Source: a virus
IMG/VR virus record: IMGVR_UViG_3300050015_001122
Span: 1-49,622 of that record
Length of the DNA stretch: 49,622 nt
Reading direction: 5' to 3' (one strand)
Under the pieces are notes generated by a model. It did no database searches. It worked only from the letters and a program-made list of their open reading frames with translations, and was not told the DNA's origin. Shown one piece after another: positions 1-48,578 of this stretch. Within the stretch, counting starts at the first letter, position 1, and every line of letters starts with the position of its first letter. The position numbers and the translations under genes were made by a program.

Positions 1-1422
1 AGTGGGGGGGGGGCGTTTTTGGGGGGTCTGACCCTTGTGCCCCCGCGCCCGCCCTGCGTCTGGCTGGCGGCGCTGGCGGGCGTGGTGACGGGCCTGTGTT
101 TCTACGGATACCCCGCGATGCTGATCTTCCTGCCCCTGTTCCTGATCGCCCTGGTGGCTGGCACGTGGCGGCAGTGGTGGGGGTTGCTTCGTGGCGAGAG
201 AACTCTTACCGCAGGCGGGTCCGCTGCACCGGAAATGGGGGACACCACCCTATTTCCTGCTGGAAATAGGGTAGCGTCCCCCATTTCCCGCCGAGGGATC
301 GTCGCCGTCCTCGCCTTCGCGATTACGGCGGCAGCCATCTTCGCGCCCCTCGCCTGGATGCACGCCTTCCACGGTGACGAGATACGCAAGAGGACCGTGG
401 GCCAATGGGTCTGGGAGTTCGGCCGGCCGCCGGGGGAGGAGTACTCCCTGGGGACCAAGGTGGTGGCGGTCGCCGGCCGGTACCTCGACCATTTCGGCGC
501 GGACTTCCTCTTCGTCAGCGGCGACCATTCCTCCATCGAGTCCCCGCCGGGCATGGGCATGTTCCACTGGTACATGCTGCCGCTCTTCCTGCTGGGGGCG
601 GCCTGGTGCATCTGGAACTTCCGCACCTCGGCCGCGGCGCGGGTGGTGCTCGCGTGGGTGCTGCTCTACCCGGCGAGCGACAGCCTGGGATGGAGCTTCG
701 GCGACAAGAACGAGCTCTGCCTGCACTCGCTGCGGAGTTCGCCGGGCATCTGCGGACTGGTGCTGCTGGCGGCGGCCGGCGGGGCCTGGGCGGGCGGCTG
801 GCTGCTCCGTCGCAATCGCTCGAACTTCTGGGCGGCGGCGTGCGTTCTGGCGCTGACGGTTGCGGGCCTCAATGCCCGGTATTTGCCGACCTTCTTCGGC
901 GAGTACAACCGCCGGCCCTACATCTACCGCAGGTACCACGAGGACCTCGCGGAGGCCTGTCGCTGGCTCAAACACCGCCTGGACCAGGATCCTAACGTGT
1001 ACGACGCCGTCTTCTGCACCACGTTCGGGATGAAACAGCCTTACATCATCGCCCTGCACGAACTGGACTACGACCCCGCGCGATGGCAAGGGGACCCGAA
1101 AGTGATCGATACGGCCGGCATGTTCGACACCGTCCTCCAGTTCGGCAAGATGCACTTCCTGAACTACCAGATGACCAGCGCGGGGAAGATGAGCCCCGAC
1201 CCGCGGGTGGGCCTGGGCGAGTTCCTCGAAGGCGCCAAAGGCAAGAAGGCGCTTTTCATCCTCCGCCGGTTTCCCGCCATCGACGGCATGTCGCGAGGGG
1301 ATTTCGATGAGGAAGAGGTCCTCCGCAAGCACGTAGGGCTGGCCTCCTGGCACGTCATTGAGGAAATCCACCGCCCGGGCGATAACGAGGTCGTGCTCAA
1401 GCTCGTCGAGGCGACGCCGTAA
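1..1422 (+). CDS. Membrane glycosyltransferase-like protein, 5' end outside window
   Basis: The frame is open from base 1, so the true start lies left of the window; the TTG at 19 is only the first possible start inside it. Several hydrophobic segments fill the first two thirds (about residues 15-48, 92-112, 182-225 and 240-285 counted from base 19) and the last third is soluble. The early Phe-Tyr-Gly-Tyr-Pro-Ala stretch followed by a hydrophobic helix resembles family 39/ArnT-type glycosyltransferases, which transfer sugars from polyprenyl-phosphate carriers at the outer face of the membrane. That assignment is inference, because the catalytic N-terminal loop is not in the window. A 58-bp palindrome lies in frame at 231-288. 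Confidence 0.6.
   Translation, partial: SGGGAFLGGLTLVPPRPPCVWLAALAGVVTGLCFYGYPAMLIFLPLFLIALVAGTWRQWWGLLRGERTLTAGGSAAPEMGDTTLFPAGNRVASPISRRGIVAVLAFAITAAAIFAPLAWMHAFHGDEIRKRTVGQWVWEFGRPPGEEYSLGTKVVAVAGRYLDHFGADFLFVSGDHSSIESPPGMGMFHWYMLPLFLLGAAWCIWNFRTSAAARVVLAWVLLYPASDSLGWSFGDKNELCLHSLRSSPGICGLVLLAAAGGAWAGGWLLRRNRSNFWAAACVLALTVAGLNARYLPTFFGEYNRRPYIYRRYHEDLAEACRWLKHRLDQDPNVYDAVFCTTFGMKQPYIIALHELDYDPARWQGDPKVIDTAGMFDTVLQFGKMHFLNYQMTSAGKMSPDPRVGLGEFLEGAKGKKALFILRRFPAIDGMSRGDFDEEEVLRKHVGLASWHVIEEIHRPGDNEVVLKLVEATP
231..288. repeat. Nested 58-bp palindrome inside a coding frame
   Basis: The outer arms GGAAATGGGGGAC (231-243) and GTCCCCCATTTCC (276-288) are perfect inverted copies. The inner arms ACCCTATTTCC (247-257) and GGAAATAGGGT (262-272) are a second perfect pair. 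It looks like a REP/MITE-type palindrome. It keeps the reading frame of the surrounding gene open and adds about 19 codons in a loop between hydrophobic segments. Confidence 0.8.
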
Positions 1423-8717: not shown

Positions 8718-10324
8718 GTCCGGCAAGAGCCCGCAGAACGCGGGCTTTTGCCTTGTTTGCAGGGGTATTCTTCGCGAGCGGAGGCCCCGGCGTCAAGCCC
8801 GGGTTCTTCGCGCCTGTTATCGCCCGGAAGCACCTGGAAGCCTGTGCGCGCTTGCTCCGGCGCTTGCTCGCCGAAGGTGCCCGTCGCCCTCATCCTCGCC
8901 CGTTCCACCGAAGGCTCGTCGGGCAACAGCTTGGGCAACCGCTCCAGCGCGGACCGCTCATCGCCGGCCCCCAGGAACGTGTAGTTGTCGATGGTCAGCA
9001 TGATGGTGCTGTGCCGCGCGAGTATCTTGGCGACGGCAGGGGCAACCCCGGACCGTGCCAGCCGCGTAATGAACGTGCCCCGCAGGGCGTGGAAGTCGAT
9101 CACGCGCCCCGATGAATCCAGGTCGCGGAGGAAGTCAGAGCCGAACCGCTCGTAACACTCTTCGGCGGAGGCCGACTCCCTCAGCCAGGAATCCCGTGCC
9201 TGCGCCAGGTCCGCCTTGAGCATGTCGGCGGTACGTTCCGGCATTGGGAAGAGCCGCTCCGTCGCCGGCTTGCCGTCGATGAACCTGGCGACGGCCTCAG
9301 CGGTATCTCGTCGCATCGGTACAAGGTCGTCGCGCCTGTGCTTGGAGTAGGCCGCCGCCACTTTAACGGAGGCCGTGTCCAGGTCCGCCAGTTCAAAGCT
9401 CGCGGGCGTCAAGCTCGCAATCTCCGAAGCCCTCAGTCCCGTCGCCGCCGCGACCAGGTAGACCGTCCCGCGATCAGGGCCGTTCAGTGAGAACGGCACA
9501 AGCCGGTAGTCGTCACCGGGCTTGCCGTTGCCTTCCTGCCAAGACCACGCTGGTGCCAGCTTCGCCGCCGCGATCAGCCGCGCGAATTCGTCATCGGATA
9601 AGGCCCGGCGCCGGTGCCTCTTGTCGGCCTTGGTGTTCAGTTTCGGCACCTGGGCCAGCGGGTCCGTTCGCATCCGTTCCGTGCGAAAAAGCCATCGCGC
9701 GAAGCCCTTGATTGCGGTTAGGGCGTTGTTGATTGCCTCCGGTCCGTGCCCCGCCCGCTTCCGCTCGCCGGCGTAGGCCGACAACTTCCCGGCGTCTAAG
9801 TCCGCGATCTTGGCGAATCCGCACGCCGTAAGGACCGCCTGAATATACCGCGTGGTCAACCCGACGTGCTTCTCCGTTACACCTTTCCCGCGCAGATGGG
9901 CCACGAAGTCGCCCAGGTGCCCCGCGATCCTGCCTTCGGCGTCCAGTTCCACCAGCGCCACCCGCGCCCGCTCGGCCAGTTTCTCAGCCTTCGGGTCGAT
10001 CAGGCCCCGCCTCTTCTGCCAAGCGTCATCCTGGAGCTTGTCCCGAAGGGCCTGGGTCGCGTGGAGGTTCACGCATCCCTTGACAACGCGCACCCGCCCC
10101 GGTCCAAGGGTAACGCCGATGTAATACTCGCGAGTCTGGCCGACGATGATCTTTCGGCCCGGCTTGTTGTCCCGCGTCTTGGAAACGGGCGCGGTCCGGA
10201 CCTTGCCTGCCGCGTCGATCCATCGGGCTTGAAAGCTCGGCTTTCCGTCATCGCCGGTGCTCACGATGATCTCCGCGCCTTCGGGGATGTCCGCGTACAC
10301 TGGCCGTCGGAAGATCGTCGCCAT
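8663..10324 (-). CDS. int: Tyrosine recombinase / phage integrase (integrated-state form)
   Basis: A 553-residue site-specific recombinase. The catalytic set is visible: Arg in ATGLRASEI (about 297), Lys in YSKHRRDD (about 329), HALR (about 414), LARHS (about 437) and the nucleophile Tyr in DNYTF (about 448). An SAM-like core-binding domain lies at about 130-225. The C-terminal extension (about 480-553) runs through the attL core, and its stop lies in the host half of the tRNA, so the last residues are not the element's own. On the excised circle the same frame continues into 49126-48886 and gives 630 residues (1893 nt, exactly 631 codons). The ATG at 10324 follows the stop of the small HTH gene by 1 nt; both probably use the promoter at 10573-10600. 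Confidence 0.95.
   Translation of the reverse strand: MATIFRRPVYADIPEGAEIIVSTGDDGKPSFQARWIDAAGKVRTAPVSKTRDNKPGRKIIVGQTREYYIGVTLGPGRVRVVKGCVNLHATQALRDKLQDDAWQKRRGLIDPKAEKLAERARVALVELDAEGRIAGHLGDFVAHLRGKGVTEKHVGLTTRYIQAVLTACGFAKIADLDAGKLSAYAGERKRAGHGPEAINNALTAIKGFARWLFRTERMRTDPLAQVPKLNTKADKRHRRRALSDDEFARLIAAAKLAPAWSWQEGNGKPGDDYRLVPFSLNGPDRGTVYLVAAATGLRASEIASLTPASFELADLDTASVKVAAAYSKHRRDDLVPMRRDTAEAVARFIDGKPATERLFPMPERTADMLKADLAQARDSWLRESASAEECYERFGSDFLRDLDSSGRVIDFHALRGTFITRLARSGVAPAVAKILARHSTIMLTIDNYTFLGAGDERSALERLPKLLPDEPSVERARMRATGTFGEQAPEQARTGFQVLPGDNRREEPGLDAGASAREEYPCKQGKSPRSAGSCRTEGGGARTLDLRIKSALL
8673..8720. repeat. attL core, 48-bp direct repeat
   Basis: Identical over 48 bp to 49127-49174. 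It covers the anticodon stem-loop to the 3' end of tRNA-Lys plus three bases beyond. The flanking bases differ (C before and C after here; A before and A after in the other copy), which sets the limits exactly. It also encodes the penultimate part of the integrase on the minus strand. Confidence 0.97.
8722..8752 (+). terminator. Element-borne replacement terminator for tRNA-Lys
   Basis: GGCAAGAGCCCGC and GCGGGCTTTTGCC pair with one mismatch around a 5-nt loop and include a T4 run. It starts 5 nt after the tRNA. It replaces the host terminator that integration displaced to 49177. On the opposite strand the same bases encode integrase residues just upstream of the att core. Confidence 0.7.
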
Positions 10325-37253: not shown

Positions 37254-39392
37254 TCAGGCGGCGCCCTTGCTCATCTGCGCCGCACGGGGCTCGCCCAAGG
37301 CGATGCCGAAGTCGATCCAGCCGCGAAATTGAATGCCGAGTTCATCGAAGTTGGCCTCCGCCCGCTCGACAGTCGGCATCTCCTGGCCATTGAGGAACGC
37401 GGCCTCAATGGTGTGGAGGGCCGTCGGGTCGGCCAGCAGATACCAGGCCGTGGTGCTGTACCCGGTGTAGGTGGGGTTTTGCAGGTACGGCGTCGAGACG
37501 ACCGTCCACATGTCCCGGAAGATGTTCTGCTGCGGCAGGCTGGACGGGGCGCCGCTGGTGCTGACCAGGGCGGGGATAAGCTGCTGGCTCTGCATCAACT
37601 GCATGGCCGTCGGCTTGAGGTTCGAGGGAACCAGCAGGATCTTCGGCTCGATACCCAGCGGGTTGTTGAACGGGTCGGTCTGCGCCAGGAAGTTGGTGTA
37701 GAGCTGCCCCAAGGCCGCGAAGCACAGATTGGTCGTTGCCCCGCTGATGTAGTTGTTGTTGCCGGCGGCGAAGAAGGTCCCGGCCGTGCCGTCCGTCTTC
37801 GTGTAGGCGTTGGCCAGCCAGGTGGTCCAGAACTTCTTGTTCACGGCCAGGCCCGCGCCACGGCCGAACCGGCGGGGAAGGTCCGCGAAGGCGCTCAGGT
37901 CGTCATTGACGATCTGCTGGCGGCTGAGGCCGAACATCTTCGCGTAGGTGTCCACCTGGATGACGTACTTCTGCTCACCGAGCTGCCCGTGCTTGATCTC
38001 GCCATCCGGCCCCAGCGGCTCGAAGGTGAAGTCCTCGGTGAGGCGCAGGCGGTTTTGCGGCTTGAAGTCGTTCGCGGGGCCGCGCTTGGCGATCAGGCTC
38101 CACGCGCGATCGACGTTCATGTACCCCTCAAGCAGGAACTTGTTCATCAAGTTCGACAGGATGTTCGGGACGGAGATCGTCGAGAACGCGGCCTTCAACC
38201 ATTCCCTGCTGATGTCCTTGCCCCACGGAAGGGCGACCCCTTCCATCTGGCAGGCCAGTTCGATCATGCTCCGGGGGCCAATCCCGCGGAAGCGGGTGCT
38301 GGCGTCGATGACCTGCTCGGGGAACTTCATCTGGAGCAGCCGGTCCCCGCTGTAGCCCCCGGTCTGAAGCGCGGCCGCCTCAATCACCTGGGCGCTCAAC
38401 GTGCAGCCGTGGACGTGGACGGCCGGGGCGCCGGCGATCGGGCGGGAAGCCTGGAGCACCTCCAGCTTGGTCTTGTCCTCGCCCCAGCCTTCCTTGACCG
38501 CCTGGGCGGCGATCTTCGGATGGTCCTTGGCGAGGGCCTGGACCGTCGCGATCCGGTCCATCTCCGTGCCGGTCTTGGCGCGGAGTTCCGCCACGGGATC
38601 GGGCGGGGCCGCGGCGGAGGCGGCAACCGGGGGTGTGGTCGCCTCCGTCTTGGCCGGCGGCGCGGCGGGCGGCTTCTTCGATGCCTCGTACTTGGCGGTG
38701 AACTTGGCCGTCTGGTCCGTGTCCAGGTCGGCTGCCGCAAGGTTGTACTCGGCCTGTAGCCACTTCTCGAACTCGTTCATGGGAGTCTTCTCCTGTGCGG
38801 CTTTCGCCGCGATTCGTGCGGACGTGGAGGTATCCGCCCCCAGCGCTACGAAACTGATTTCGCCGAGGGTCGATTTGCGTGCGATGGTGACAGGGCCGGC
38901 CACGCTCTGGCCGTTGACCAGGCATGTCTTCCCGGCCCCGATGAACTCCGTCTGATCGACTGTCGCCCCAATGGAGGCTTGCCACTCAAAGCCGTTTGCG
39001 GCGTGGTCCAGCACCGCCTGGCACGTCGGCGAGCGGCCGGTAACGTCCCCCTCCGCGGCCAGCTTCCCCTGCATGATCGTGACTGTGCTGGTCTGCCCCA
39101 GCAGCGAGTCGATGTCCTCCGTGTCGTGGTTGGCGTAGACGGGCAGTTTCGTCGCCGCGACCGACAGGCCCTGCATGTCAACGACGACAGGGTGAGTCCA
39201 GCCGTTCAAGCGCATCGGCCCGCCGTTGTACGCCGACAGCGCGAACCGGGGATTCTTCGGCTTCTCGCCGGCCGCCGTCGCCGCGGCTGCCTGGATAGTG
39301 AACTGGCCGGGCAGCATCGCCAAGGGCTTTGCGTTTGCAGCCGCCTGCGGCGAGCCTGTCGAACCCGCGCGTAGCTTCCTGCCGTGGCTCAT
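37254..39392 (-). CDS. Prohead protease / scaffold / major capsid fusion
   Basis: A 712-residue protein. Residues about 1-190 look like a caudoviral prohead serine protease (LPVYANHDTEDIDSLLGQTS with His near 87, FEWQASIG near 138, and LGEISFVALGADTSTSARIA near 172-190). Residues about 205-300 are an Ala/Pro/Lys-rich helical linker like a scaffold. Residues about 330-712 match GpT-type (Mu-like) major capsid proteins (DYSAF-type core here as QQIVNDDLSAFADLPRRFGR). An internal ATG at 38780 with AGGAG 9 nt upstream would give a separate 508-residue scaffold-capsid. The ATG at 39392 is preferred; a GTG at 39398 overlaps the portal stop. Confidence 0.85.
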   Translation of the reverse strand: MSHGRKLRAGSTGSPQAAANAKPLAMLPGQFTIQAAAATAAGEKPKNPRFALSAYNGGPMRLNGWTHPVVVDMQGLSVAATKLPVYANHDTEDIDSLLGQTSTVTIMQGKLAAEGDVTGRSPTCQAVLDHAANGFEWQASIGATVDQTEFIGAGKTCLVNGQSVAGPVTIARKSTLGEISFVALGADTSTSARIAAKAAQEKTPMNEFEKWLQAEYNLAAADLDTDQTAKFTAKYEASKKPPAAPPAKTEATTPPVAASAAAPPDPVAELRAKTGTEMDRIATVQALAKDHPKIAAQAVKEGWGEDKTKLEVLQASRPIAGAPAVHVHGCTLSAQVIEAAALQTGGYSGDRLLQMKFPEQVIDASTRFRGIGPRSMIELACQMEGVALPWGKDISREWLKAAFSTISVPNILSNLMNKFLLEGYMNVDRAWSLIAKRGPANDFKPQNRLRLTEDFTFEPLGPDGEIKHGQLGEQKYVIQVDTYAKMFGLSRQQIVNDDLSAFADLPRRFGRGAGLAVNKKFWTTWLANAYTKTDGTAGTFFAAGNNNYISGATTNLCFAALGQLYTNFLAQTDPFNNPLGIEPKILLVPSNLKPTAMQLMQSQQLIPALVSTSGAPSSLPQQNIFRDMWTVVSTPYLQNPTYTGYSTTAWYLLADPTALHTIEAAFLNGQEMPTVERAEANFDELGIQFRGWIDFGIALGEPRAAQMSKGAA
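38780..38794 (-). promoter_or_regulatory. Internal ribosome binding site for separate capsid synthesis
   Basis: AGGAG (38794-38790) lies 9 nt before an in-frame ATG (38780) exactly at the protease/scaffold boundary, followed by a plausible N-terminus (Met-Asn-Glu-Phe-Glu-Lys). It resembles the nested C/Nu3 arrangement of lambda, here extended to the capsid. Confidence 0.65.
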
Positions 39393-39394
39393 GG

Positions 39395-41224
39395 TCACAA
39401 GTCCTCCGTGTCGTCTGCGCTCGGGTCTTCGTCGGGTGCGACCTTTTTGCCAGTGGGCTTGCCGGCGGGCTGCATCGTCGGGTCCGGCGCCTCTTCGTCG
39501 TCTTCCTCGACGGCCACGGGCGCCGCGGGCTGGGCCTGCGCGAGAGAAAGCCCCAGTTCCTTCATCAAGGCGATTTCCTTGGCCCGCTGGCGAAGCTGCT
39601 TCTCCCAGTCCTGCCCGTTCCGCGCATACTCCGTGGCGAGCGTGGTCGTGTTGGCCGCCAGGCGGACGGCTTGGGCATTGGCCTCCTTGAGCGGGTCAAC
39701 ATGCTCGTGCCCGTCCCAATGCCACTGGTGCGGCACTTCCCGCAGTGTGCGGGCCTTGAGGGGGAGATAGTCCGAGACGAGAATCGCCTCGTCGAACCAA
39801 GCCCGGAAGACCGGATCGAGGACCTTGATTTCGCAATGGGAGCGTTCGACCCGGATGCTCTTGAAGTAGGTCTGGTGGTCCAGCCGGCCGGAAGCGTAGT
39901 TGTACCCCGACGAGTTGCCCAGGGCGACGTTCAGGGGCATGTTCAAGCAGCGGGCGATCTCGCAGATGTAGGTGCGGACGACCATATCGAAGGTCGTGGT
40001 CGGCTGCTCCGGCTTGATCTGGCCGATATCGTAACCTTCCGGGAGGAACGTCATCATCCGGCGCTCAAGCGCAAGGACATCGAACGGCTCCCCGATGTTC
40101 ACATCGACATTCGCCCCCGCCTGCGTCTTGGCGACGATGGCGTGGTCGGCCGCCGCCTCCGCTGCATCGAGCACCGCCAGAGTGTACCGGCGAAGCTGGG
40201 CGAAGAGCGGAAGGGCCGCCAGAAGCTCCGGCAGGCCGCGGTGCTGGCCCGGCCGATCTGCGCGGAACCAGTGGACCACGTTCGCGGCCGGAACCACGTC
40301 ATACTCCCACGGCATACCGATAAAGCCCGTGGCGTAGGCCCAGTAGCCCGGATGCACCCGCAGGATGTGGTAGTTGACCGGGTTGCCCCAGTCGTCGTAC
40401 TGGATGCCGTCCACCGAGGGCACCAGCAGCAGCGAGATGTCCACGAAACGAACCTGATCGGCCTCCGGCAGCTTGAGGTCCATCTTGACGGGGCTGTCCA
40501 GGCCCTTGTTGGTGATGAACACGGCGAACGCCTCGCCGTCCTGGGTCTTCGCCTTCTTGAGCGTGCGGAGCTTCTCGGCGAAGCTCGTCGCCCTGCACCA
40601 CTGGGCAAAGCCGGTCTCGATGGCGTTATTCAGCTCTTCGTCGTCCGTCTGGATTTGGAGCCGTGGGCCTGTGCCGATCACGTCGTTTGCCAGCGTCTCG
40701 ACCATGCCCCGCGCATACGAGTTGTTGTGGACCTCATACCGGGCTCGGTTGCGGAGGATGTACCGGATATTGGGGTTGGCCGCGGCGTCGGCCGCCAGGC
40801 CGTCGGCCATCATCCAGTGCCGGCGGTTGTCCTCGGTGGTGAGGGCGGTATCGAAGCGGGCCGAGATGCGCCCACCGCCCCCGAAGCGCGGCCCCTGGCT
40901 GAACAGCGTTCTTTCCACGCCCGCTTGCGGTGAGCCTGCCGAACCGCCCGCCACGGCGTTCATGGCCATTTCAAGCTCGGCGTCACCGGCCATGAGGCGC
41001 TCGCGCTCGGGGCTCCGCCGAACGCGGGCGAGCGGGGCCGTCTTGCCCTCGATGTCGGAGTCCGGCCGGCGCGCCGGGGGGTGCTTCTTCACACCAAGGA
41101 GGAGCCGGCCCAGGAAGCCCCTGACACCGCCGCGCTCCAGGCTTGCCGCGGCGGAGGGCGGCGACTTGTCCGGCGAAGCCTTGGCCAAGCCGGAAGCCGG
41201 ACGGATTGTCTCGCGGTTCGCCAT
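39395..41224 (-). CDS. Portal protein, lambda gpB family
   Basis: A 609-residue portal, the ring through which DNA enters the head. Family landmarks: NSYARGMVETLANDVIGTGP (about 165-185), DGEAFAVFITNKG, then FIGMPWEYDVVPAANVVHWF (about 310-330), DRPGQHRGLPELLAALPLFA, and YNYASGRLDHQTYFKSIRVE (about 450-470). The acidic, Pro-rich tail (EEDDEEAPDPTMQPAGKPTG) is common in this family. The ATG at 41224 shares a base with the stop of the gpW-like gene (TGATG). The protease gene follows at once. Confidence 0.92.
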   Translation of the reverse strand: MANRETIRPASGLAKASPDKSPPSAAASLERGGVRGFLGRLLLGVKKHPPARRPDSDIEGKTAPLARVRRSPERERLMAGDAELEMAMNAVAGGSAGSPQAGVERTLFSQGPRFGGGGRISARFDTALTTEDNRRHWMMADGLAADAAANPNIRYILRNRARYEVHNNSYARGMVETLANDVIGTGPRLQIQTDDEELNNAIETGFAQWCRATSFAEKLRTLKKAKTQDGEAFAVFITNKGLDSPVKMDLKLPEADQVRFVDISLLLVPSVDGIQYDDWGNPVNYHILRVHPGYWAYATGFIGMPWEYDVVPAANVVHWFRADRPGQHRGLPELLAALPLFAQLRRYTLAVLDAAEAAADHAIVAKTQAGANVDVNIGEPFDVLALERRMMTFLPEGYDIGQIKPEQPTTTFDMVVRTYICEIARCLNMPLNVALGNSSGYNYASGRLDHQTYFKSIRVERSHCEIKVLDPVFRAWFDEAILVSDYLPLKARTLREVPHQWHWDGHEHVDPLKEANAQAVRLAANTTTLATEYARNGQDWEKQLRQRAKEIALMKELGLSLAQAQPAAPVAVEEDDEEAPDPTMQPAGKPTGKKVAPDEDPSADDTEDL

Positions 41225-41424
41225 CAGTAGACGGTCCCCGGCGCCTGGAGCTTCGCGCTGCGAATGCCGGCGCGCTTCTTCGGGAAAGCCTGATTCGCGG
41301 CCAGGTACTTGTCGCTCTCGACCTGCTCGCCCAGCGGGTGCTGGTGGACCTCGCCCGAACGGCCGCGGGCCATGCTGGGGCCTTGTGCGTTCTGCTGGAT
41401 CGCGCTCTGTACGTCGTCGGGCAT
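41224..41424 (-). CDS. gpW-like head-tail joining protein
   Basis: A 66-residue protein between the terminase region and the portal, where lambda has W. The sequence (DVQSAIQQNAQGPSMARGRS, then GEVHQHPLGEQVESDKYLAA and a basic ending APGTVY) is the typical short pattern of this small family: helix, beta hairpin, helix. GAGG lies 6 nt before the ATG. It is the first gene after the terminator at 41451-41490. Confidence 0.75.
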   Translation of the reverse strand: MPDDVQSAIQQNAQGPSMARGRSGEVHQHPLGEQVESDKYLAANQAFPKKRAGIRSAKLQAPGTVY

Positions 41425-41450
41425 TTGCGCCTCGCGTCAGACCCAAAGAA

Positions 41451-41490
41451 AAAGCCCCACCTCCACACCGTACGGTGAAGGTGGGGCTTT
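41451..41490 (-). terminator. Strong intrinsic terminator in the late leader
   Basis: AAAGCCCCACCT and AGGTGGGGCTTT form a perfect 12-bp stem, extended by a CAC/GTG pairing. On the minus strand it is followed by a T-rich run (TTTTTCTTT), so it ends minus-strand transcription. It lies 27 nt before the gpW-like gene, between that gene and the promoter at 41578-41605. Confidence 0.85.
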
Positions 41491-41577
41491 AGCTCGTCTC
41501 CGAGGCTCGCGGCCGGCCGGCCGTGTTCCTTGGGCAGTCTTCAGTTTTTTCGGAGCTGGGCTCCGATCTGGCTGTCT

Positions 41578-41605
41578 ATTCTACATCGACACCAAGCCCA
41601 GTCAA
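41578..41605 (-). promoter_or_regulatory. Late promoter with attenuated leader
   Basis: On the minus strand TTGACT (41605-41600) and TAGAAT (41583-41578) are 16 bp apart. The predicted leader runs from about 41571 to 41425 with a small hairpin (CGGAGC-CCA-GCTCCG, 41551-41565) and then the terminator. No gene lies between 41491 and 41832 on either strand. Confidence 0.7.
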
Positions 41606-41832
41606 GAAACAATCTGGCAAAAGAAGGCCGTGAAGTACGCTAATGGTACTTCTTGCGGTTTTGGGGTGTTTTTGCGGCCGGGAGGGCGAGTTGATGTGAT
41701 TCCGCAGTCTAGTGGCCCCCTCAGAAGACCGAGAAGGACTCACGCGGAATCGTCAGGCGATTGAGGCGGGGGCCATCCTGCGGCGTCACGTCTCCGGGCT
41801 CCAGGCCGACTGGTGGGGCTTAAGAAGCCGCC

Positions 41833-43185
41833 TCACTTGACCCAACGGGCCTTGGGCGTCCCGGTCCCCCCGAGAACAATCGAATCGATGCCGCTGGTGA
41901 TCCGGAGGTCCTCATGAATGGCCGTGCCGGATGTCAGTGAAAGGCTCTGCGCAACGAGCGCCCCGCACAGTTGGAAGCCCGTCGTCACGTTGATGGGGGC
42001 GTTGGGTGAGATCACCACTCCGTACAGGCTGCCTCCGCCCATAAGTGTGACGGGCGTCGTTCCCACGTTGTAGAGGGTCAGGCGGTCCAGGTTCTGCCCG
42101 TCCACGACGTTGGCGGCCCCCGTGTTGATGGTGATACCGCCCTGGCAGTACACCTTGAGCGAGGAATTGGGTAGGACCTCCAGGTTGGCGCCCGTGTTGA
42201 CCGTGAAAGCACCATCCGTCACCACGACCACGTTTCCGCTGATCTTGAGCTTGCCGCCGGTGCCTACGCTGAGGCTGGCCACGTGAAGGCTCTGGCTGAG
42301 GGTGTTGGTACTGCCGGTCGCATAGGACACCGCCGCTTGGGTCGCGCCCAGGTTGGGAACGGTAATGGTCGGCATGGGCACAGTCGCCGACATGGTCGTC
42401 GTGGTACCGGTGTAGGTGCCGCCCATGCTGATACTCACGGTTTTGGTGACGTCCGTGCCGGGGCCTGCGGCCACCAAACCGTTGAGGTAGGACCACGTTC
42501 CGATGGAAACCGCCCCGGCCTGGGTTGAATCCGTCACCACATGCGCATTGGAGCCGGAGTTGCCCGATCCATAGGGGCCCAGGGTGGAATCAAAGGAATC
42601 GATCGTGGCCCCGGGGCTCATAGAACTCGGCCTGGGCTCCATGCTGATTGATACGGCGGTGGCCACGATGACCCCGGAACTGATCGTTGAGCCCGAGGGC
42701 GTCACGACCGCCTGGGACGCCCAGTTGGCTTCCTTGAAAGTGCCGACGGCCGTCAGCGTCAGCGACTGGGTCGGGTCGGCCGTGAAGCTGCCGTTGCCCA
42801 CGACGATGCCGCTTCCATTGGGGTCCTGCCCCGCCTGGCCGATGACGGTGAAGACCCCGCCACCGAAGGAGACGTTCTGGCCCCAGGTGCCGGGCGTCTT
42901 GGCCGTCTTCCAGTTGGCGTCCGAGCCCACATACGCCAGGGCCATCTCCAGCCCCGACTCGGCGATCATCCGGGCCTGCGTGCGGTTGGAAAGGTTTCGA
43001 GCCAACTGAACCGAGACCGCTTGCTGGGCCATGTACCCGCCGCTGAGGACGAACACCATGGCCACGACGGCCAGCACCAGTACCAGGGCGATGCCGCGAC
43101 GGTTGCTTGCCATGCGCATGTTGGCGGGAACCCAGGGCTTTCGGCACATGTGTCTTCTCGTTTTCTGTCTGAGTTCATCGGTCAT
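41833..43185 (-). CDS. PilX-like pilin / polymer-forming accessory protein
   Basis: A 450-residue protein. Residues about 25-55 form a pilin-like N-terminal helix after a short basic leader (RRGIALVLVLAVVAMVFVLS), and LARNLSNRTQARMIAESGLE follows, as in PilX/type IV minor pilins. The C-terminal half is a regular beta pattern (about 300-445; LKISGNVVVVTDGAFTVNTG, LYGVVISPNAPINVTTGF), like the DUF7305 polymer-like domain of such proteins. This is a cell-surface gene type, not a virion protein. It lies alone between the zinc-ribbon gene and the late promoter, so it looks like a moron (accessory cargo). AGGA lies 6 nt before the ATG at 43185. Confidence 0.75.
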   Translation of the reverse strand: MTDELRQKTRRHMCRKPWVPANMRMASNRRGIALVLVLAVVAMVFVLSGGYMAQQAVSVQLARNLSNRTQARMIAESGLEMALAYVGSDANWKTAKTPGTWGQNVSFGGGVFTVIGQAGQDPNGSGIVVGNGSFTADPTQSLTLTAVGTFKEANWASQAVVTPSGSTISSGVIVATAVSISMEPRPSSMSPGATIDSFDSTLGPYGSGNSGSNAHVVTDSTQAGAVSIGTWSYLNGLVAAGPGTDVTKTVSISMGGTYTGTTTTMSATVPMPTITVPNLGATQAAVSYATGSTNTLSQSLHVASLSVGTGGKLKISGNVVVVTDGAFTVNTGANLEVLPNSSLKVYCQGGITINTGAANVVDGQNLDRLTLYNVGTTPVTLMGGGSLYGVVISPNAPINVTTGFQLCGALVAQSLSLTSGTAIHEDLRITSGIDSIVLGGTGTPKARWVK

Positions 43186-43331: not shown

Positions 43332-43580
43332 TCATCCCTGTGCTGGCTGCTCGAACGTTACCAGCCGGTGCCCGCAGTTCCGGCAGGCACGCAGGCGCCG
43401 AATGCCTCTCATGCGGTCTCGCGTGTAGACGACCCGCCAGTCCCGGCACCCGCACTTGCGGCAGTGCAGCCCGCGCTCGTCCCGGTTCATTTTGTCGCTG
43501 AACCGCGTGCGATGAACGCCGTCCTGGGGCGCAGGCGATTCCTCTCGGCCATCATCCTTGCTGAACTTGGTCATGGTCAT
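43332..43580 (-). CDS. Zinc-ribbon protein after the terminase
   Basis: An 82-residue protein with C-x2-C (40, 43) and C-x2-C (66, 69) spaced by a basic stretch (RDWRVVYTRDRMRGIRRLRA), a zinc-ribbon that resembles the NrdR N-terminal domain or the Ogr-type late activators. The ATG at 43580 overlaps the terminase stop (ATGA), and GGAG lies just upstream. A role as activator of the late promoter at 41578 is possible but unproven. Confidence 0.7.
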   Translation of the reverse strand: MTMTKFSKDDGREESPAPQDGVHRTRFSDKMNRDERGLHCRKCGCRDWRVVYTRDRMRGIRRLRACRNCGHRLVTFEQPAQG

Positions 43581-45811
43581 CTTTCTCCTATAAGTTCCGA
43601 GAACCGTGTCCGCTTCACTTCCCGTTTCGGCCTCACCGACATCTCAGCCGTCACACAGCCCTGCATCGACGCCGCCACGGCGCAGCCGACCAGGCAGTCC
43701 AGGAAATGGTTGTCCGTCTTGGACGGCCTGGCTTTCCACTCGTGAACCGTGCGCCCCTGGCCTTCAGTGATGACGTAGTATTCCGACTCGGCCACGTGCT
43801 CGGCAAATAGGGCGTGGTGCTCCGGGTTCTTGCCGAAGAGAGTCATCGCGCCCCGGTCGCCTGCGGCCGTCGCCAACCGGGCATGTACGAATGTCTTCCA
43901 CGAGTTCGCGTCAAAGGCGACGTGCCGGAACTCGCTCGACCGCGATACGTTGGGGATGTACCAGTTCGCGCCATGGCGCTCGCCGGGGTGCCGGGTGTAG
44001 GCCGCCATCGGCTTGTTGCCTGCCTTGAGGCCCATGCCCTTGGACAGGAGCGCGGCCGGACCGATCTTGATGGCAACAGCGTTGCACACTCCCGGCAGAT
44101 AGCCCATGTCGATGAGCAGCCGCTCGACGCGCAGGGCGGCGCCGTCGGTCCTCGCCCACGGCCGGGCCAGAAGCTCCGACGCCAGCTTCTCCAGGCCCGA
44201 CTGGACAGCGCCCTCGACACCGGCCCCACGGAACAGGTCGGCCAGCGTATGGCTGGCGTCCCGCTGGGTGAAGTACAGCCGCTTCTGGTCGGGGAAGGTC
44301 CCGTAGTCGATGACGTATCCCGTGAAGTCCTCCTCCCACGCGCAGACGCAGTAGAACAGCAGCTTGTCATGTACGTCGATGAAGGCGGTAATGCGAGTCG
44401 CCGCCAGGGGCACCTCACCCCGCGGCCGGCCTGTGATCTTCCCGGCCACTTCGTCGGCGGTGATCCGTCTGTCCTCGTACTGCTCCACGATCGGCTCATT
44501 CTGGTACTCGGCGGAGAACATCTCCTCCCCAACCTTCAGCTTCCAGTTTATGGCGTGCTGGATGGCCGATATCTCGGTCTTCTCGAACCGCTCCGGCCAG
44601 GCGACAACGGCCCCGGCGTCCATCGCCTCGCGGTGGGCGGCATAGAACTCCGTGGCGGGCACCAGGCCCTTACCCGTTCGCAGCCCCTCGGCCCAGATGC
44701 GGGCGTACTCGTCCCAGAGCTTCTCCGCCGTGGGAAAGGCATAGACGAGCTTCGTACATTCGCCCTGCCACTCGGGATGCTTCTGTCGGTCCAGGAGTTG
44801 GTCGGCCAGGTCGCCGGCATAGGTCTTGGTGCAGGTGAGCAGCGCAGACATGGACTCGCCCGGCCCGGCCATCGGCAGCACGTCGCCGAGCAGGAGTTGG
44901 AGCCTGTCTCGGGTCTGCTTTGCCGACCGGGCGGACTCCCGAGTCTGGGGGTCATCCAGCAGGACCAGAGACGGGCGGATGATGGAGCCGCCGACGCGGG
45001 CGTGCTGCTGGCCCTTGATGTTGGCGTCCAGGCTGGTCGCAGTGATGATTGATCCCGAAGACTCGGAACCCTCGACTGTGGGGAACACCAGCTTGTCGGC
45101 GCCCCAGATGCAGTAGGTGGGCTTGTTGTCGATGTGCTGGCCAATCTGTCTGCGGGCGTTGTTCTCCAATCTTCGCAGCGGATAGACCGCCTTGGGGAAG
45201 TCGGCCTCAAGCAGCGAGTTGTCCATGATGGCCTTGCGTACGGGCGCCAGCAGCTCTATCGCCCGTGCCCGCGAGCCGCCGATAAGACACACAAAGGGGC
45301 GATACCCGCCCAGGACGGCCCACAACGCCGCCAGCCTCGCCAGCGTCGTCTTGCCGCTGCCGCGCGGCATGGCGAACGCAAACAGGCCGCCTTCCTTCAC
45401 CGCCCGCTCGATCTTCTCAATAACGCGGAGGTGATCCTCCGACCAGTGCCGGTAGAGCGCGGGGGCGAAGTAGGTTTCACAGAAGAAGCGGAAGCTTGCC
45501 ACAGCCTTCTGCCGGCGGGCAGGGTCGGCCACTTCCGGGACCGGGGCGATATTCTGCGCCCGCCGATAGGCTTCGATTTTCCGCGCCAGCGTGGTGTCGT
45601 AACTCCTCCGCCTCTTGGCCGGCCCCTCTACCTCCTTCACCAGCCAGCGGATGTAGTCCAAGAGGCGGATGTACCGGCCGTCATGCCATCGCCGACCGGC
45701 CCGGTTCATCTGGGATGTAAGCCGACCGCGAGTGAGGCACTCGCCCAGGCTGGTCGAGTTGAGCAGTTGGACAAGCTCGTCCCGACTGAGCTTTTTCGGG
45801 TCAAGAGCCAT
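43577..45811 (-). CDS. Terminase large subunit, GpA type
   Basis: A 744-residue DNA-packaging motor of the lambda GpA family. The ATPase half has Walker A PRGSGKTT (about 147-154), Walker B SLVLLDDPQT (about 278-287) and the coupling LLTCTKTYAGD. The nuclease half has ITAFIDVHDKLLFY (about 470) and DNHFLDCLVGCAVAAS near the C-terminus. The start overlaps the small HTH gene by 11 nt. GpA-type terminases cut at cos or pac sites; the cut site was not found. Confidence 0.93.
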   Translation of the reverse strand: MALDPKKLSRDELVQLLNSTSLGECLTRGRLTSQMNRAGRRWHDGRYIRLLDYIRWLVKEVEGPAKRRRSYDTTLARKIEAYRRAQNIAPVPEVADPARRQKAVASFRFFCETYFAPALYRHWSEDHLRVIEKIERAVKEGGLFAFAMPRGSGKTTLARLAALWAVLGGYRPFVCLIGGSRARAIELLAPVRKAIMDNSLLEADFPKAVYPLRRLENNARRQIGQHIDNKPTYCIWGADKLVFPTVEGSESSGSIITATSLDANIKGQQHARVGGSIIRPSLVLLDDPQTRESARSAKQTRDRLQLLLGDVLPMAGPGESMSALLTCTKTYAGDLADQLLDRQKHPEWQGECTKLVYAFPTAEKLWDEYARIWAEGLRTGKGLVPATEFYAAHREAMDAGAVVAWPERFEKTEISAIQHAINWKLKVGEEMFSAEYQNEPIVEQYEDRRITADEVAGKITGRPRGEVPLAATRITAFIDVHDKLLFYCVCAWEEDFTGYVIDYGTFPDQKRLYFTQRDASHTLADLFRGAGVEGAVQSGLEKLASELLARPWARTDGAALRVERLLIDMGYLPGVCNAVAIKIGPAALLSKGMGLKAGNKPMAAYTRHPGERHGANWYIPNVSRSSEFRHVAFDANSWKTFVHARLATAAGDRGAMTLFGKNPEHHALFAEHVAESEYYVITEGQGRTVHEWKARPSKTDNHFLDCLVGCAVAASMQGCVTAEMSVRPKREVKRTRFSELIGER

Positions 45812-45989
45812 TGGCCTTCGCCTTCTCTTCCTGCTGATTCAGCCAAGCACCGTAGACGATCAAGTCGATCCGCTTGCCCACGCGCGGCAGGCCGCGGCGG
45901 ATGTGCGCGCGGACGGTCTTGGGGTGTACCTTCAGGAACTTCGCCGCGGCCGCGATCGACAGGGACCGGATATTCAGTTCCTCGCTCAT
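45801..45989 (-). CDS. Terminase small-subunit-like HTH protein
   Basis: A 62-residue protein with a winged HTH (SIAAAAKFLKVHPKTVRAHI, RRGLPRVGKRIDLIVYGAWL) like the DNA-binding head of lambda gpNu1. It lies directly before the large subunit, with which it overlaps. It is shorter than gpNu1 (181 residues), which suggests the assembly domain is missing or in another protein. The ATG overlaps the radical-SAM stop (ATGA). Confidence 0.7.
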   Translation of the reverse strand: MSEELNIRSLSIAAAAKFLKVHPKTVRAHIRRGLPRVGKRIDLIVYGAWLNQQEEKAKANGS

Positions 45990-47383
45990 ATGCCCTCACT
46001 TCCCGGCCAGGGCTTGCCGGCCCGCTGGCGGGCTACGGTGTCCATGTTCATCAGCTTGTCGGTCGGGGTGTACGAAGTGAGATACCGCGTCGGCAACGTG
46101 TCCCAGGTGTAGGCCCCAAAGAGGCGGGCAACATCGACGTGGCGTTCCAAGATGGCCGTCCTGTGCGCCATCGACGCGCCGCGGAACTTGGCGGAGGAAG
46201 CAAGGCGAGCCACGACCTCGGAGTCGTCCTCGGTGCCCCGCAGCACCAGCGAGTCGAGGATGACGGTGGGTAGGCTCTCCGTGCCCCGGCTCTCGGCCGC
46301 CCAGAACCGAGTGCCGCGGTAGAAGATGCCGTGGTACTGGCCGTGCTGCCCTTGGCGCAGGATCTTCACGATCCGGCCGCGATAATTGACAGGGGACATC
46401 GGCCAGCAGGCGCAGGGCGTCGCCGGCATGGGCCGGAACGGGGTGGAGTGGACCTCGATACCCCACTGGGCCTCAACCTTTGTGAAGTCCTTGTCCGCGG
46501 CGGCCAGGTCTTCCAGGAACTCAAACCAGTCGGCCTCCGTCTCGGTCGGGTAGCCCACGATGTTGTATATCTTCATATGGTTTGGCGCCACGGTGGACGA
46601 AGCCATGCCCCGGAAGAAGCCCCGCAACATGTCTCGCGTAATGGGCTTGTTGACCATCCGCCGCAGGCGCTCGGAGAAGCCGTCCAGCCCCACGATCCGC
46701 AGTTTGGGCAGGCCCCACGTCTCAGGCTTCTCCAGGTCAAGCTCAAAGATCGTCTTCTCTGCCGACCCGCCCCAAAGGACATCGCCGGCACCGGCCTCGT
46801 TCTGTAAGCCCCCGACGTGCCGCCTGTGCCACGTGTACCCGCAGAACATGCACTTCCGCTGGCACCCATAAGCCGATTCCTTCCAGGTCTTGCCGTTGGC
46901 CAGGGGGACCGGATGCGGATAGAGCGCCGTCCCGGCATCGAGGATGTACGTCTTGTCCATGCTGAAGTCGGCCGCATGGATGACAGAGGGGTGCTCGTGC
47001 CGCTCGCCGGCCAGCGCCGCCCGGACGACGGGCACGACGTACTCCTCCGCCCGGCCCAGGCAGAAGGTATCGCACCACCGCAGGAACGGCCGGACGTTGA
47101 GGAGCCCAGCGCCGCCGGCGATGACGGTGGGCCGGGCGGTCTTCGGCCAGCCCAGCCGCTCGCCGATGAAGCTGTACCAGTCGCAGCCGGACGTGATGGA
47201 TACCAGCACGACCTTGTACCGGCCGGCCGTGGCGGAGGAGCAGTAGTCCACCTCGATCCCCGCTTGCCGTAGGGCGTGGCAGATCATTTCCAGGCCCGGC
47301 CATGCGCGGACGTTGTAGCTCTCGACCGCGTAGGCGGGCTTGGCGTACTTACCTTGGACGTAGACGGCGACTTCTGCGCTCAT
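45986..47383 (-). CDS. B12-binding/radical-SAM-like enzyme in the packaging operon
   Basis: A 465-residue protein. The N-terminal part is a Rossmann-like cobalamin-binding type domain (about 1-150: YNVRAWPGLEMICHALRQAG, VVLVSITSGCDWYSFIGER). Then comes the cluster motif CQRKCMFC (about 173-180), the C-x3-C-x2-C of radical-SAM enzymes, and a TIM-barrel pattern (KLRIVGLDGFSERLRRMVN, KIYNIVGYPTETEADWFEFL). The substrate is unknown. AGGAGG lies 7 nt before the ATG at 47383, so the upstream in-frame start at 47458 is rejected. Its stop overlaps the next start. Confidence 0.85.
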   Translation of the reverse strand: MSAEVAVYVQGKYAKPAYAVESYNVRAWPGLEMICHALRQAGIEVDYCSSATAGRYKVVLVSITSGCDWYSFIGERLGWPKTARPTVIAGGAGLLNVRPFLRWCDTFCLGRAEEYVVPVVRAALAGERHEHPSVIHAADFSMDKTYILDAGTALYPHPVPLANGKTWKESAYGCQRKCMFCGYTWHRRHVGGLQNEAGAGDVLWGGSAEKTIFELDLEKPETWGLPKLRIVGLDGFSERLRRMVNKPITRDMLRGFFRGMASSTVAPNHMKIYNIVGYPTETEADWFEFLEDLAAADKDFTKVEAQWGIEVHSTPFRPMPATPCACWPMSPVNYRGRIVKILRQGQHGQYHGIFYRGTRFWAAESRGTESLPTVILDSLVLRGTEDDSEVVARLASSAKFRGASMAHRTAILERHVDVARLFGAYTWDTLPTRYLTSYTPTDKLMNMDTVARQRAGKPWPGSEGI

Positions 47384-47439
47384 GAGACACCTCCTGTCCG
47401 GCCCGGTGTACAAGTGTTGCATCCGCTGCGAGAGGGGAT

Positions 47440-47778
47440 ATGATTCGTCCCATGGCAAGGGTGGATCACGACCGAATGAAGAAGCAGTATGGCAACCTGT
47501 ACTCCCAGGTAGCAGCCATCCTCTTTGAGGCTGATCCTGTCGGGATCAACGTCGGGTTCAACACAGACGAGTACGAGCCCGAGGTATCCACTATCCTGCC
47601 CCGCCTGCGGGAATGCTCTTCGGCAGCGGATGTGCAGAGAGTTCTGCTTGAGGAGTTCACGCGTTGGTTCAGTGCAGAGGTGGTGAAGCCGGAGGTCTCG
47701 CGGGACCAGTATGCCGGGCCTGCTGCCAAGATATGGGAGCTTTGGCAACAGAGCCCGCTGTCCGGACCCGCCATGTAG
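47440..47778 (+). CDS. Lone plus-strand hypothetical protein
   Basis: A 112-residue protein, the only confident gene of the element on this strand. GAGAGG lies 4 nt before the ATG at 47440. The sequence is well folded in appearance: YGNLYSQVAAILFEADPVGI, NVGFNTDEYEPEVSTILPRL, ADVQRVLLEEFTRWFS. I recall similar stand-alone proteins in many bacteria but cannot name a function; some resemble immunity proteins. It lies between converging minus-strand genes with 25 nt to the ParB-like stop, and is a moron candidate. Confidence 0.75.
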   Translation: MIRPMARVDHDRMKKQYGNLYSQVAAILFEADPVGINVGFNTDEYEPEVSTILPRLRECSSAADVQRVLLEEFTRWFSAEVVKPEVSRDQYAGPAAKIWELWQQSPLSGPAM

Positions 47779-47802: not shown

Positions 47803-48291
47803 TCACCCGATCGGGAACTGGTGCCCGCACTTGGGGCAACGGATGGTTTCGGCGGCATCCCCTGCGTCGGCCGCGCCGTCTTCCAGGCCCGTATCGAACT
47901 CGCGCAGGTACTCAGCCAGTTCCTTGTCAATGAAGCCCAGCAGCTTCAGGTCCGCGCCGCCCTCCCGCAGTTCGCCCAACTCGATGGGCAGGAGGTCGAT
48001 GTCCCACTCGGAGTTTTCCGCGACTCTGTTGTCGGCGATGCGGTAGGCCCGTGCCTGCTCGGGCGTCAGGTCCGCGGCGACGTGGACGGGCACGGTCTTG
48101 AGCTTCAGAAGGAGCGCCGCCTTGTACCTGGTGTGGCCGACGACGATCACGCCGTCCTTGTCCACCACGATGGGCTGCCGGAAGCCGAACTCCTGGATGG
48201 ACTTCGCCACGGCCTCCACGGCCTTGTCATTCCGGCGGGGGTTTCCGGGGTAGGGCTTCACCCGCTCGATGTCCCATTCTTCAATTTTCAT
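47803..48291 (-). CDS. ParB-like protein with C-terminal zinc knuckle
   Basis: A 162-residue protein with a ParB/Srx domain: VKPYPGNPRRNDKAVEAVAK, FGFRQPIVVDKDGVIVVGHT, RYKAALLL, AYRIADNRVAENSEWD. It ends with CPKCGHQF. Phages often carry such ParB-like proteins beside the terminase, sometimes joined to methyltransferases; no methyltransferase is joined here. The ATG at 48291 overlaps the upstream stop (ATGA). Confidence 0.85.
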   Translation of the reverse strand: MKIEEWDIERVKPYPGNPRRNDKAVEAVAKSIQEFGFRQPIVVDKDGVIVVGHTRYKAALLLKLKTVPVHVAADLTPEQARAYRIADNRVAENSEWDIDLLPIELGELREGGADLKLLGFIDKELAEYLREFDTGLEDGAADAGDAAETIRCPKCGHQFPIG

Positions 48292-48578
48292 GCTTGGCCT
48301 CCCGGTGTGCTCGCGGACGTATCTGTGATCTTCACCCACTCAAGCCGCACCTGGCCGCGGACAGGCGGACGACGCTTGCCTGGATTCTCCTCGCACCAGC
48401 GACACATCCCGGGCGTCACCTCGCGGCCGAAACCCTTGGCCACGATGGCGCACTCGCTGTAGCCTGGACACCACCGTTTGGCACGCTTGGCCTTGCCGCC
48501 GGCCAGGGGCAGGCCGACGATCTTGGTCCCGGCGGGCAGGTAGTACCGACCTGGCCGATCTAATCGTGGTAACTTCAT
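48288..48578 (-). CDS. Small Cys-containing hypothetical protein
   Basis: A 96-residue basic protein with four Cys in two groups (WCPGYSEC ... MCRWC), possibly a zinc site. AAGG lies about 10 nt before the ATG. It overlaps both neighbours by ATGA junctions, so it belongs to the packaging operon. No family was recognised. Confidence 0.6.
   Translation of the reverse strand: MKLPRLDRPGRYYLPAGTKIVGLPLAGGKAKRAKRWCPGYSECAIVAKGFGREVTPGMCRWCEENPGKRRPPVRGQVRLEWVKITDTSASTPGGQA

Follow-up and report, generated by a model that had tools for sequence, protein, structure and literature searches.

The locus analysed here raises the question of how the structural genes of a phage are expressed when a strong transcription terminator lies between an apparent late promoter and the first of those genes. 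The window, by which we mean the whole stretch of DNA analysed, is one complete IMG/VR record of 49,622 bases and carries the feature under study on its minus strand. The answer proposed here, and held with rather more confidence than doubt, is that the feature serves a planctomycete phage as its only late (head/structural) promoter, and that it would be controlled in two layers, by zinc-ribbon protein activation and by a leader that is read through.

The terminase large subunit served to gather relatives, namely 42 viral contigs together with 80 contigs drawn from Planctomycetota and from a small number of other bins, among them isolates such as Rhodopirellula rubra. The gene order in these relatives runs from terminase through a small zinc-ribbon protein (hereafter ZnR), variable cargo and the leader to a gene for a 66-residue protein, portal and capsid, so that the late-promoter cassette is, as far as sequence comparison can tell, conserved across planctomycete phages and prophages. 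The distance from the ZnR gene to the 66-residue gene ranges from 58 to 4320 nt. In the window the intervening cargo, between ZnR and the late promoter, is a DUF7305 gene with a prepilin-like start (PF23981; positions 41833-43185, minus strand), which is dispensable for the cassette. Its product combines a type IV prepilin-like N-terminus with a location in the phage late region, where relatives hold other cargo of up to ~4 kb. When models of the leader element were run against Planctomycetota genomes under stricter filters, matches were sparse, occurring in 5 and 1 of 246 genomes. Two genes ahead of the terminase show good conservation in close relatives, one for a radical-SAM-like protein (45986-47458, minus strand) and one for a ParB_N protein bearing a zinc ribbon at its C-terminus (47803-48339, minus strand). 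Directly before the terminase large subunit is a gene for a 62-residue helix-turn-helix protein (45801-45989, minus strand), kept in 10 of 11 leader-bearing contigs, which is perhaps the small terminase or another regulator.

The first gene of the structural operon (41424-41224, minus strand; 66 aa) is conserved in most relatives and is followed by portal, capsid/protease, cement and head-tail joining genes. The portal gene (PF05136, E 1e-54; phrog_21) is contained in a longest open reading frame at 39395-41446 on the minus strand, its true start lying inside, and the capsid/head maturation protease gene (PF25209; phrog_4523) occupies 37254-39398 on the same strand. The operon had initially been described as gpW-portal-capsid: its portal and capsid/protease assignments stand, whereas the 66-residue protein has no match in Pfam or PHROGs and its gpW name rests on size and on its occupying the lambda gpW position. 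Between the leader and the 66-residue gene, about half of the relatives that have a leader also contain a gene for tRNA-Met(CAU) (for example L029:14204-14277, L014:5123-5194 and L016:6090-6162). This leader-adjacent tRNA sometimes ends 1-3 nt ahead of the start codon, and its anticodon is CAU in every intact case.

The promoter, as the sequence-only reading correctly had it, comprises a -35 hexamer TTGACT (41605-41600) and a -10 hexamer TAGAAT (41583-41578) on the minus strand, separated by a 16-nt spacer. Together the hexamers match the promoter consensus at 10 of 12 positions. Promoter-like sites are nonetheless as frequent as chance predicts, a 15.6 kb scan finding 2 compared to 2.0 expected, and taken on its score alone the window promoter is at chance level. 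Its significance derives instead from the relatives, in which both the spacing and the distance to an upstream palindrome are conserved; 16 nt is the commonest spacer, being found in 21 of 46 leader-bearing copies. Transcription is predicted to start at 41571, 7 nt past the -10 hexamer, and in type I relatives (see below) beginning GACAAC the RNA element likewise starts 7 nt past the -10. No promoter was seen between the terminator and the structural operon, nor any other promoter for the operon, so that every productive transcript must cross the terminator.

The palindrome (GAAGTAC-N7-GTACTTC; 41632-41652) is centred on 41642, some 71 bp upstream of the predicted start (~-71), and is the proposed operator of ZnR. 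Its sequence, GAAGTACCATTAGCGTACTTC, is present once in the window even when up to 3 mismatches are allowed. Among phages the palindrome sequences vary (TTTCCATATATGGAAA, TCTACCGGTGTAAC, TGACATATATGGCA, TTCGATCTATCGAA and GTTTCTACTAATAGAAAC are examples), and most of the contigs scanned contain one palindrome each, with tandem arrangements in G001 and G002. Measured from the palindrome centre to where the leader RNA begins, 34 copies fall into two groups, 25 at 67-71 bp and 8 at 78-83 bp; the interval 72-77 bp is empty, and a single outlier stands at 92 bp. These two distances differ by one helical turn with nothing in between, the pattern expected of a protein that contacts RNA polymerase from a fixed face, and in 33 of the 34 copies the operator is well upstream of the -35 and helically phased, the geometry of a class I-type activator site. 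From the position of the palindrome upstream of the -35 we infer activation rather than repression.

The protein proposed to bind there, ZnR, is an 82-residue NrdR-type zinc ribbon encoded directly after the large terminase gene (43332-43580, minus strand). It matches Pfam family PF22811 (Zn_ribbon_NrdR) above cut-off with an E-value of 2e-7, while a profile comparison with solved NrdR structures gave 1e-4. The ATP-cone domain found no match within its 82 residues. In NrdR itself, one zinc ribbon engages each half of a 16-bp palindrome (PMC12051234). The link between ZnR and the palindrome was assessed quantitatively by sorting palindromes into classes by eye from the DNA, before the ZnR sequences were extracted and with the assignments of L031, L035, L040 and L044 being loose ones; ZnR identity, corrected for terminase identity, was higher within than between these classes by 0.147 (permutation sd 0.011), giving a z of 13.7, a value reached in none of 1000 permutations. 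For comparison, control proteins flanking the same DNA yielded z values of 1.4 (66-residue protein), 2.5 (capsid) and 0.1 (terminase C-terminus). Some co-inheritance of ZnR and palindrome through proximity is possible, although these controls argue against it. We take the comparison to mean that ZnR recognises the palindrome.

Relatives that have no terminator RNA (L019-L022, L035, L042, L045 and others) retain both ZnR and the palindrome, and several of them have a -10-like site at a similar distance from it. The presence of ZnR is therefore not due to the terminator. Since ZnR co-varies with a DNA palindrome and is kept in phages without the RNA, it is probably an activator of initiation at the late promoter, as judged from comparative sequence evidence, and an antiterminator role is not favoured. 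The suggestion that the zinc ribbon is a candidate regulator of the switch is accordingly sustained as regards regulation, through its tie to the palindrome, while the antiterminator role is not.

Downstream of the promoter, the terminator arm P4 (41490-41451, minus strand) is a predicted intrinsic terminator, a hairpin of 16 pairs, AAAGCCCCACCTTCACCGTACGGTGTGGAGGTGGGGCTTT followed by TTCTTTGGG, with a predicted energy of -29.7 kcal/mol. The G+C-rich stem leads at once into the U-tract, which together with the 3' strand of helix P1 (UUCUUUGGGU) occupies 41450-41441 on the minus strand. Hairpin and tail together read TTTTTCTTT (41490-41441), with TTCTTTGGG trailing the hairpin 26-27 nt before the 66-residue open reading frame. 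Both strands of the window contain 2 sites with at least 13 pairs and a strong T-run, where shuffled sequences gave 0.2; the sole other hairpin of such quality is at about 6509 on the minus strand. Terminator arms in the relatives have energies of about -17 to -31 kcal/mol, and U-tracts are present in nearly all copies of both leader subtypes. As originally described, the terminator carries a T-run and lies 27 nt before the operon, and to this extent the description holds. Its tail, on the other hand, is not free, pairing with GCCCAAGGAA upstream. A terminator belonging to the cargo gene was rejected, the element occurring in relatives that lack cargo.

The whole leader (41571-41425; 147 nt, in agreement with the length of about 145 nt first given) folds with an energy of -72.5 kcal/mol, a z of -4.5 relative to shuffles. 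The small hairpin previously noticed in it is indeed present, as CGGAGCCCAGCUCCG, at the 5' end (about 41566-41550, minus strand) and outside the conserved core. Comparison divides the leaders into two subtypes: type I, with ~40 copies, and type II, consisting of the window and about 9 relatives. The type II late-leader RNA, as delimited by covariance model R2, spans 41434-41545 on the minus strand and consists of a closing helix P1, a hairpin P2, a hairpin P3 with a GNRA loop and the terminator arm P4. P1 is formed by GCCCAAGGAA with UUCUUUGGGC, and its 5' strand (GCCCAAGGAAC; 41525-41535, minus strand) pairs with the U-tract and the GGG beyond. For this strand 98.9% of alignment cells are paired, and the stability of P1 in the window was equalled in 2 of 500 shuffles. 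P3 (GCCUCGGAGACGAGC; 41492-41507, minus strand), with its GAGA loop, is nearly invariant among type II copies, L016 having AGU/ACU in place of AGC/GCU. In type I, an outer helix joins the first nucleotides of the RNA to a strand beyond the U-tract; besides this helix there are a hairpin whose loop reads CUGAUC, a P1 in which the U-tract region is paired, and a terminator arm.

Covariation was used to test these structures. Of the 37 type I pairs, 33 differ in both partners in at least one copy, and cells with such two-sided changes number 229, compared to 72 +/- 6 in shuffled controls and 28-40 with slid partners, in an alignment that was fitted to the model and is shared by the controls. On an unfitted MAFFT alignment the figures are 31 and 12 cells, and for type II they are 11 and 3.5. 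In a test independent of any alignment, run on 25 held-out type I copies, the first 22 nt paired with sequence past the U-tract more strongly than shuffles did in 20. The window scores 111.8 bits against type II model R2, of whose training set it is a member, while the one held-out type II copy, L080, was recovered with an E-value of 4e-22. The type I model, built on viral contigs, finds held-out prophage copies with E-values down to 1e-27, most of them directly upstream of the 66-residue gene. At gathering score Rfam contains no family matching the leader of the window or its relatives, only chance matches being obtained at E <= 5, and a blastn search of the leader against phage records gave no match. 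The tRNA beside a terminator brings T-box elements to mind, and there was no match to the Rfam T-box. Attenuation by a leader peptide was rejected for the window: its leader has only four GTG/TTG codons, all late, none of them a plausible leader peptide start.

Related elements were seen in other settings. In L066 a type II leader (623-735, minus strand) precedes a gene other than that of the 66-residue protein, which shows the module to be capable of moving to different operons. A larger relative of the element, here 'type 0', lies between genes of other phages (L053, L056, L057 and L060), preceding tail-tube or portal-like genes in L053, L056 and L057. At least in L053 and L057 it comes immediately behind a stop codon. 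It shares with the leader element the CUGAUCCCC hairpin and the UUUUCUUUUGG strand, and has an apparent co-varying pseudoknot (CAGGC/GCCUG and GUAAC/GUUAC). A search for additional type 0 copies returned the known ones. The planctomycete genome region L098 contains the same terminator arm three times, at 9293, 13282 and 21660, one of them before the 66-residue gene and one before a tail-tube-like gene.

The strands beyond the terminator are of particular relevance to the question posed at the outset. Neither P1 nor the outer helix can form until polymerase is beyond the terminator, and their conservation in the comparison means that selection has acted on read-through RNA. Of the original expectation that transcripts stop unless antiterminated, this much is supported: a strong terminator structure does lie in the path of transcripts from the late promoter and of any arriving from further upstream. 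The comparative evidence favours an RNA that is read through. In type I, furthermore, the terminator 5' strand, X, is the exact complement of a segment X' lying directly after a GRGC loop, forming a 5-bp competitor hairpin in 37 of 40 copies and with 12 different sequences; shuffled X' retains the match in 0.9 of 30 distinct apical sequences. X also stays paired with the terminator 3' strand, at a mean of 4.66 of 5 positions compared to 3.57 when strands are swapped between copies. A strand that retains two mutually exclusive partners usually points to a termination/antitermination switch, and regulated antitermination at the leader is likely on these comparisons. In the type II copy of the window the competitor is limited to 4 bp and does not disturb the base of the terminator; for the window itself a switch is accordingly inferred from its relatives. 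No protein present only where the RNA is present was found among 16 contigs, and this comparison yielded no antiterminator candidate.

In relatives lacking the RNA (L019-L022, L035, L042 and L045 among them), late transcription appears to rely on the same promoter. Since ZnR and the palindrome are kept there, the RNA is, on this evidence, a dispensable second layer added to a common activated promoter. In the first layer of the proposed scheme, a ZnR dimer would sit on the palindrome at about -71 and contact RNA polymerase as class I activators do, firing TTGACT-16-TAGAAT. In the second, an intrinsic terminator would form the end of the structured leader, 26-27 nt short of the first structural gene, and uninduced or leaky transcripts would stop at about nt 125. 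A factor or fold of lytic growth would then let polymerase past the terminator, after which the read-through RNA would close P1 over the U-tract. A bolder version, which we put forward tentatively and at somewhat below even chances, holds the leader to be a new class of RNA switch gating the structural operon, with the GRGC-loop hairpin as competitor, alongside a new NrdR-derived family of single-operator activators; after passage of polymerase, the RNA would lock the spent U-tract into the closed fold.

Of the other explanations, one we consider unlikely is that the leader is a post-transcriptional 5' element whose arm is merely stable and protects or processes the late mRNA, with little termination taking place and with the leader acting together with the tRNA in about half of the relatives. 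It would account for the conservation of strands beyond the U-tract, by which most of the selected RNA must be read through, for a type I fold that begins at about +1 and is paired to the far end as in 5'-end stabilisers, and for the frequent tRNA-Met(CAU) between leader and gene. Weighing against it, almost every copy of either subtype retains the arm and T-run, with energies of terminator grade, and the competing X:X' hairpin of type I befits a switch rather than a stabiliser.

A Q switch of the lambda type, in which a DNA-binding antiterminator loads onto a polymerase paused near the start and carries it past the terminator, has the identical order of a single late promoter, short leader, terminator and structural genes and the same requirement for read-through. 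It also has, in ZnR, a DNA-binding regulator whose gene is close by and which is linked to a site not far from the promoter. We nevertheless regard it as improbable. The Q families PF03589 and PF06530 were absent from the record, which may be incomplete, in searches with working controls (that for PF06323, the third family, was run without a positive control), and ZnR is retained in close relatives in which the terminator is missing. The palindrome, moreover, lies distally at -71 and not at or just upstream of the promoter elements, and what is conserved is pairs in a co-varying structured RNA rather than a DNA Q site. The resemblance to pR'-tR' that had been pointed out is therefore one of layout and does not extend to membership.

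That promoter and terminator constitute the gene of a small regulatory RNA of about 125 nt, with late transcription a side product of leakage, is a reading suggested by the presence of promoter, compact fold and terminator within 125 nt and by conserved loop sequences. We think it quite improbable, given that the closing strands sit downstream of the terminator and co-vary and that in nearly every case the element immediately precedes the structural operon, for which no other promoter was seen. Finally, the notion that the terminator ends an upstream cargo/terminase transcript and insulates the operon, the promoter being fortuitous, fits the DUF7305 gene upstream and the chance-level promoter score of the window, and is very improbable in view of the many relatives having the element without cargo (L005, L006, L012, L014, L023 and L038) and of a promoter and palindrome that keep a fixed, helically phased spacing upstream of the terminator.

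The two-layer arrangement that we favour has partial counterparts among known systems. The Ogr/Delta proteins of P2 are similarly small phage zinc proteins acting at a palindrome upstream of a late promoter, their operator being at about -55. The present system differs in its NrdR zinc-ribbon fold, in having apparently one target site per phage and in an operator at about -70 or -81; correspondingly, Ogr_Delta (PF04606) had no match in the window in a search with a working control. With NrdR, ZnR shares a zinc ribbon of the same Pfam family, palindromic sites of 14-21 bp and the importance of helical phasing. It differs in being an 82-residue protein without the ATP cone, in its diversified specificities and in a site upstream of the -35, which is not that of a simple blocking repressor. 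The put RNA of HK022, about 70 nt and two stem-loops long, acts on later terminators (PMC9378689). It is likewise a structured nascent phage RNA right after a promoter and linked to read-through, whereas here the terminator sits inside the leader element. Attenuators and riboswitch platforms resemble type I in having a short hairpin and a terminator that are mutually exclusive through one shared strand; the leader is unlike them in having no Rfam match, no plausible leader peptide in the window and no known ligand.

As far as sequence comparison goes, the activator and the RNA structure are well supported, and a switch is plausible, albeit of another make than that first envisaged: NrdR-like control of initiation together with a structured leader to be read through. 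Our search of the literature turned up no account of how planctomycete phages control their late genes, and the present analysis names a concrete candidate regulator, operator and single promoter. The naturally co-varying protein-operator pairs could reveal the recognition code of NrdR-type zinc ribbons. The leader, for its part, makes it possible to ask directly how a phage compels or allows polymerase to pass a terminator heading its structural operon, and bears on whether RNA alone suffices for read-through, as with put.
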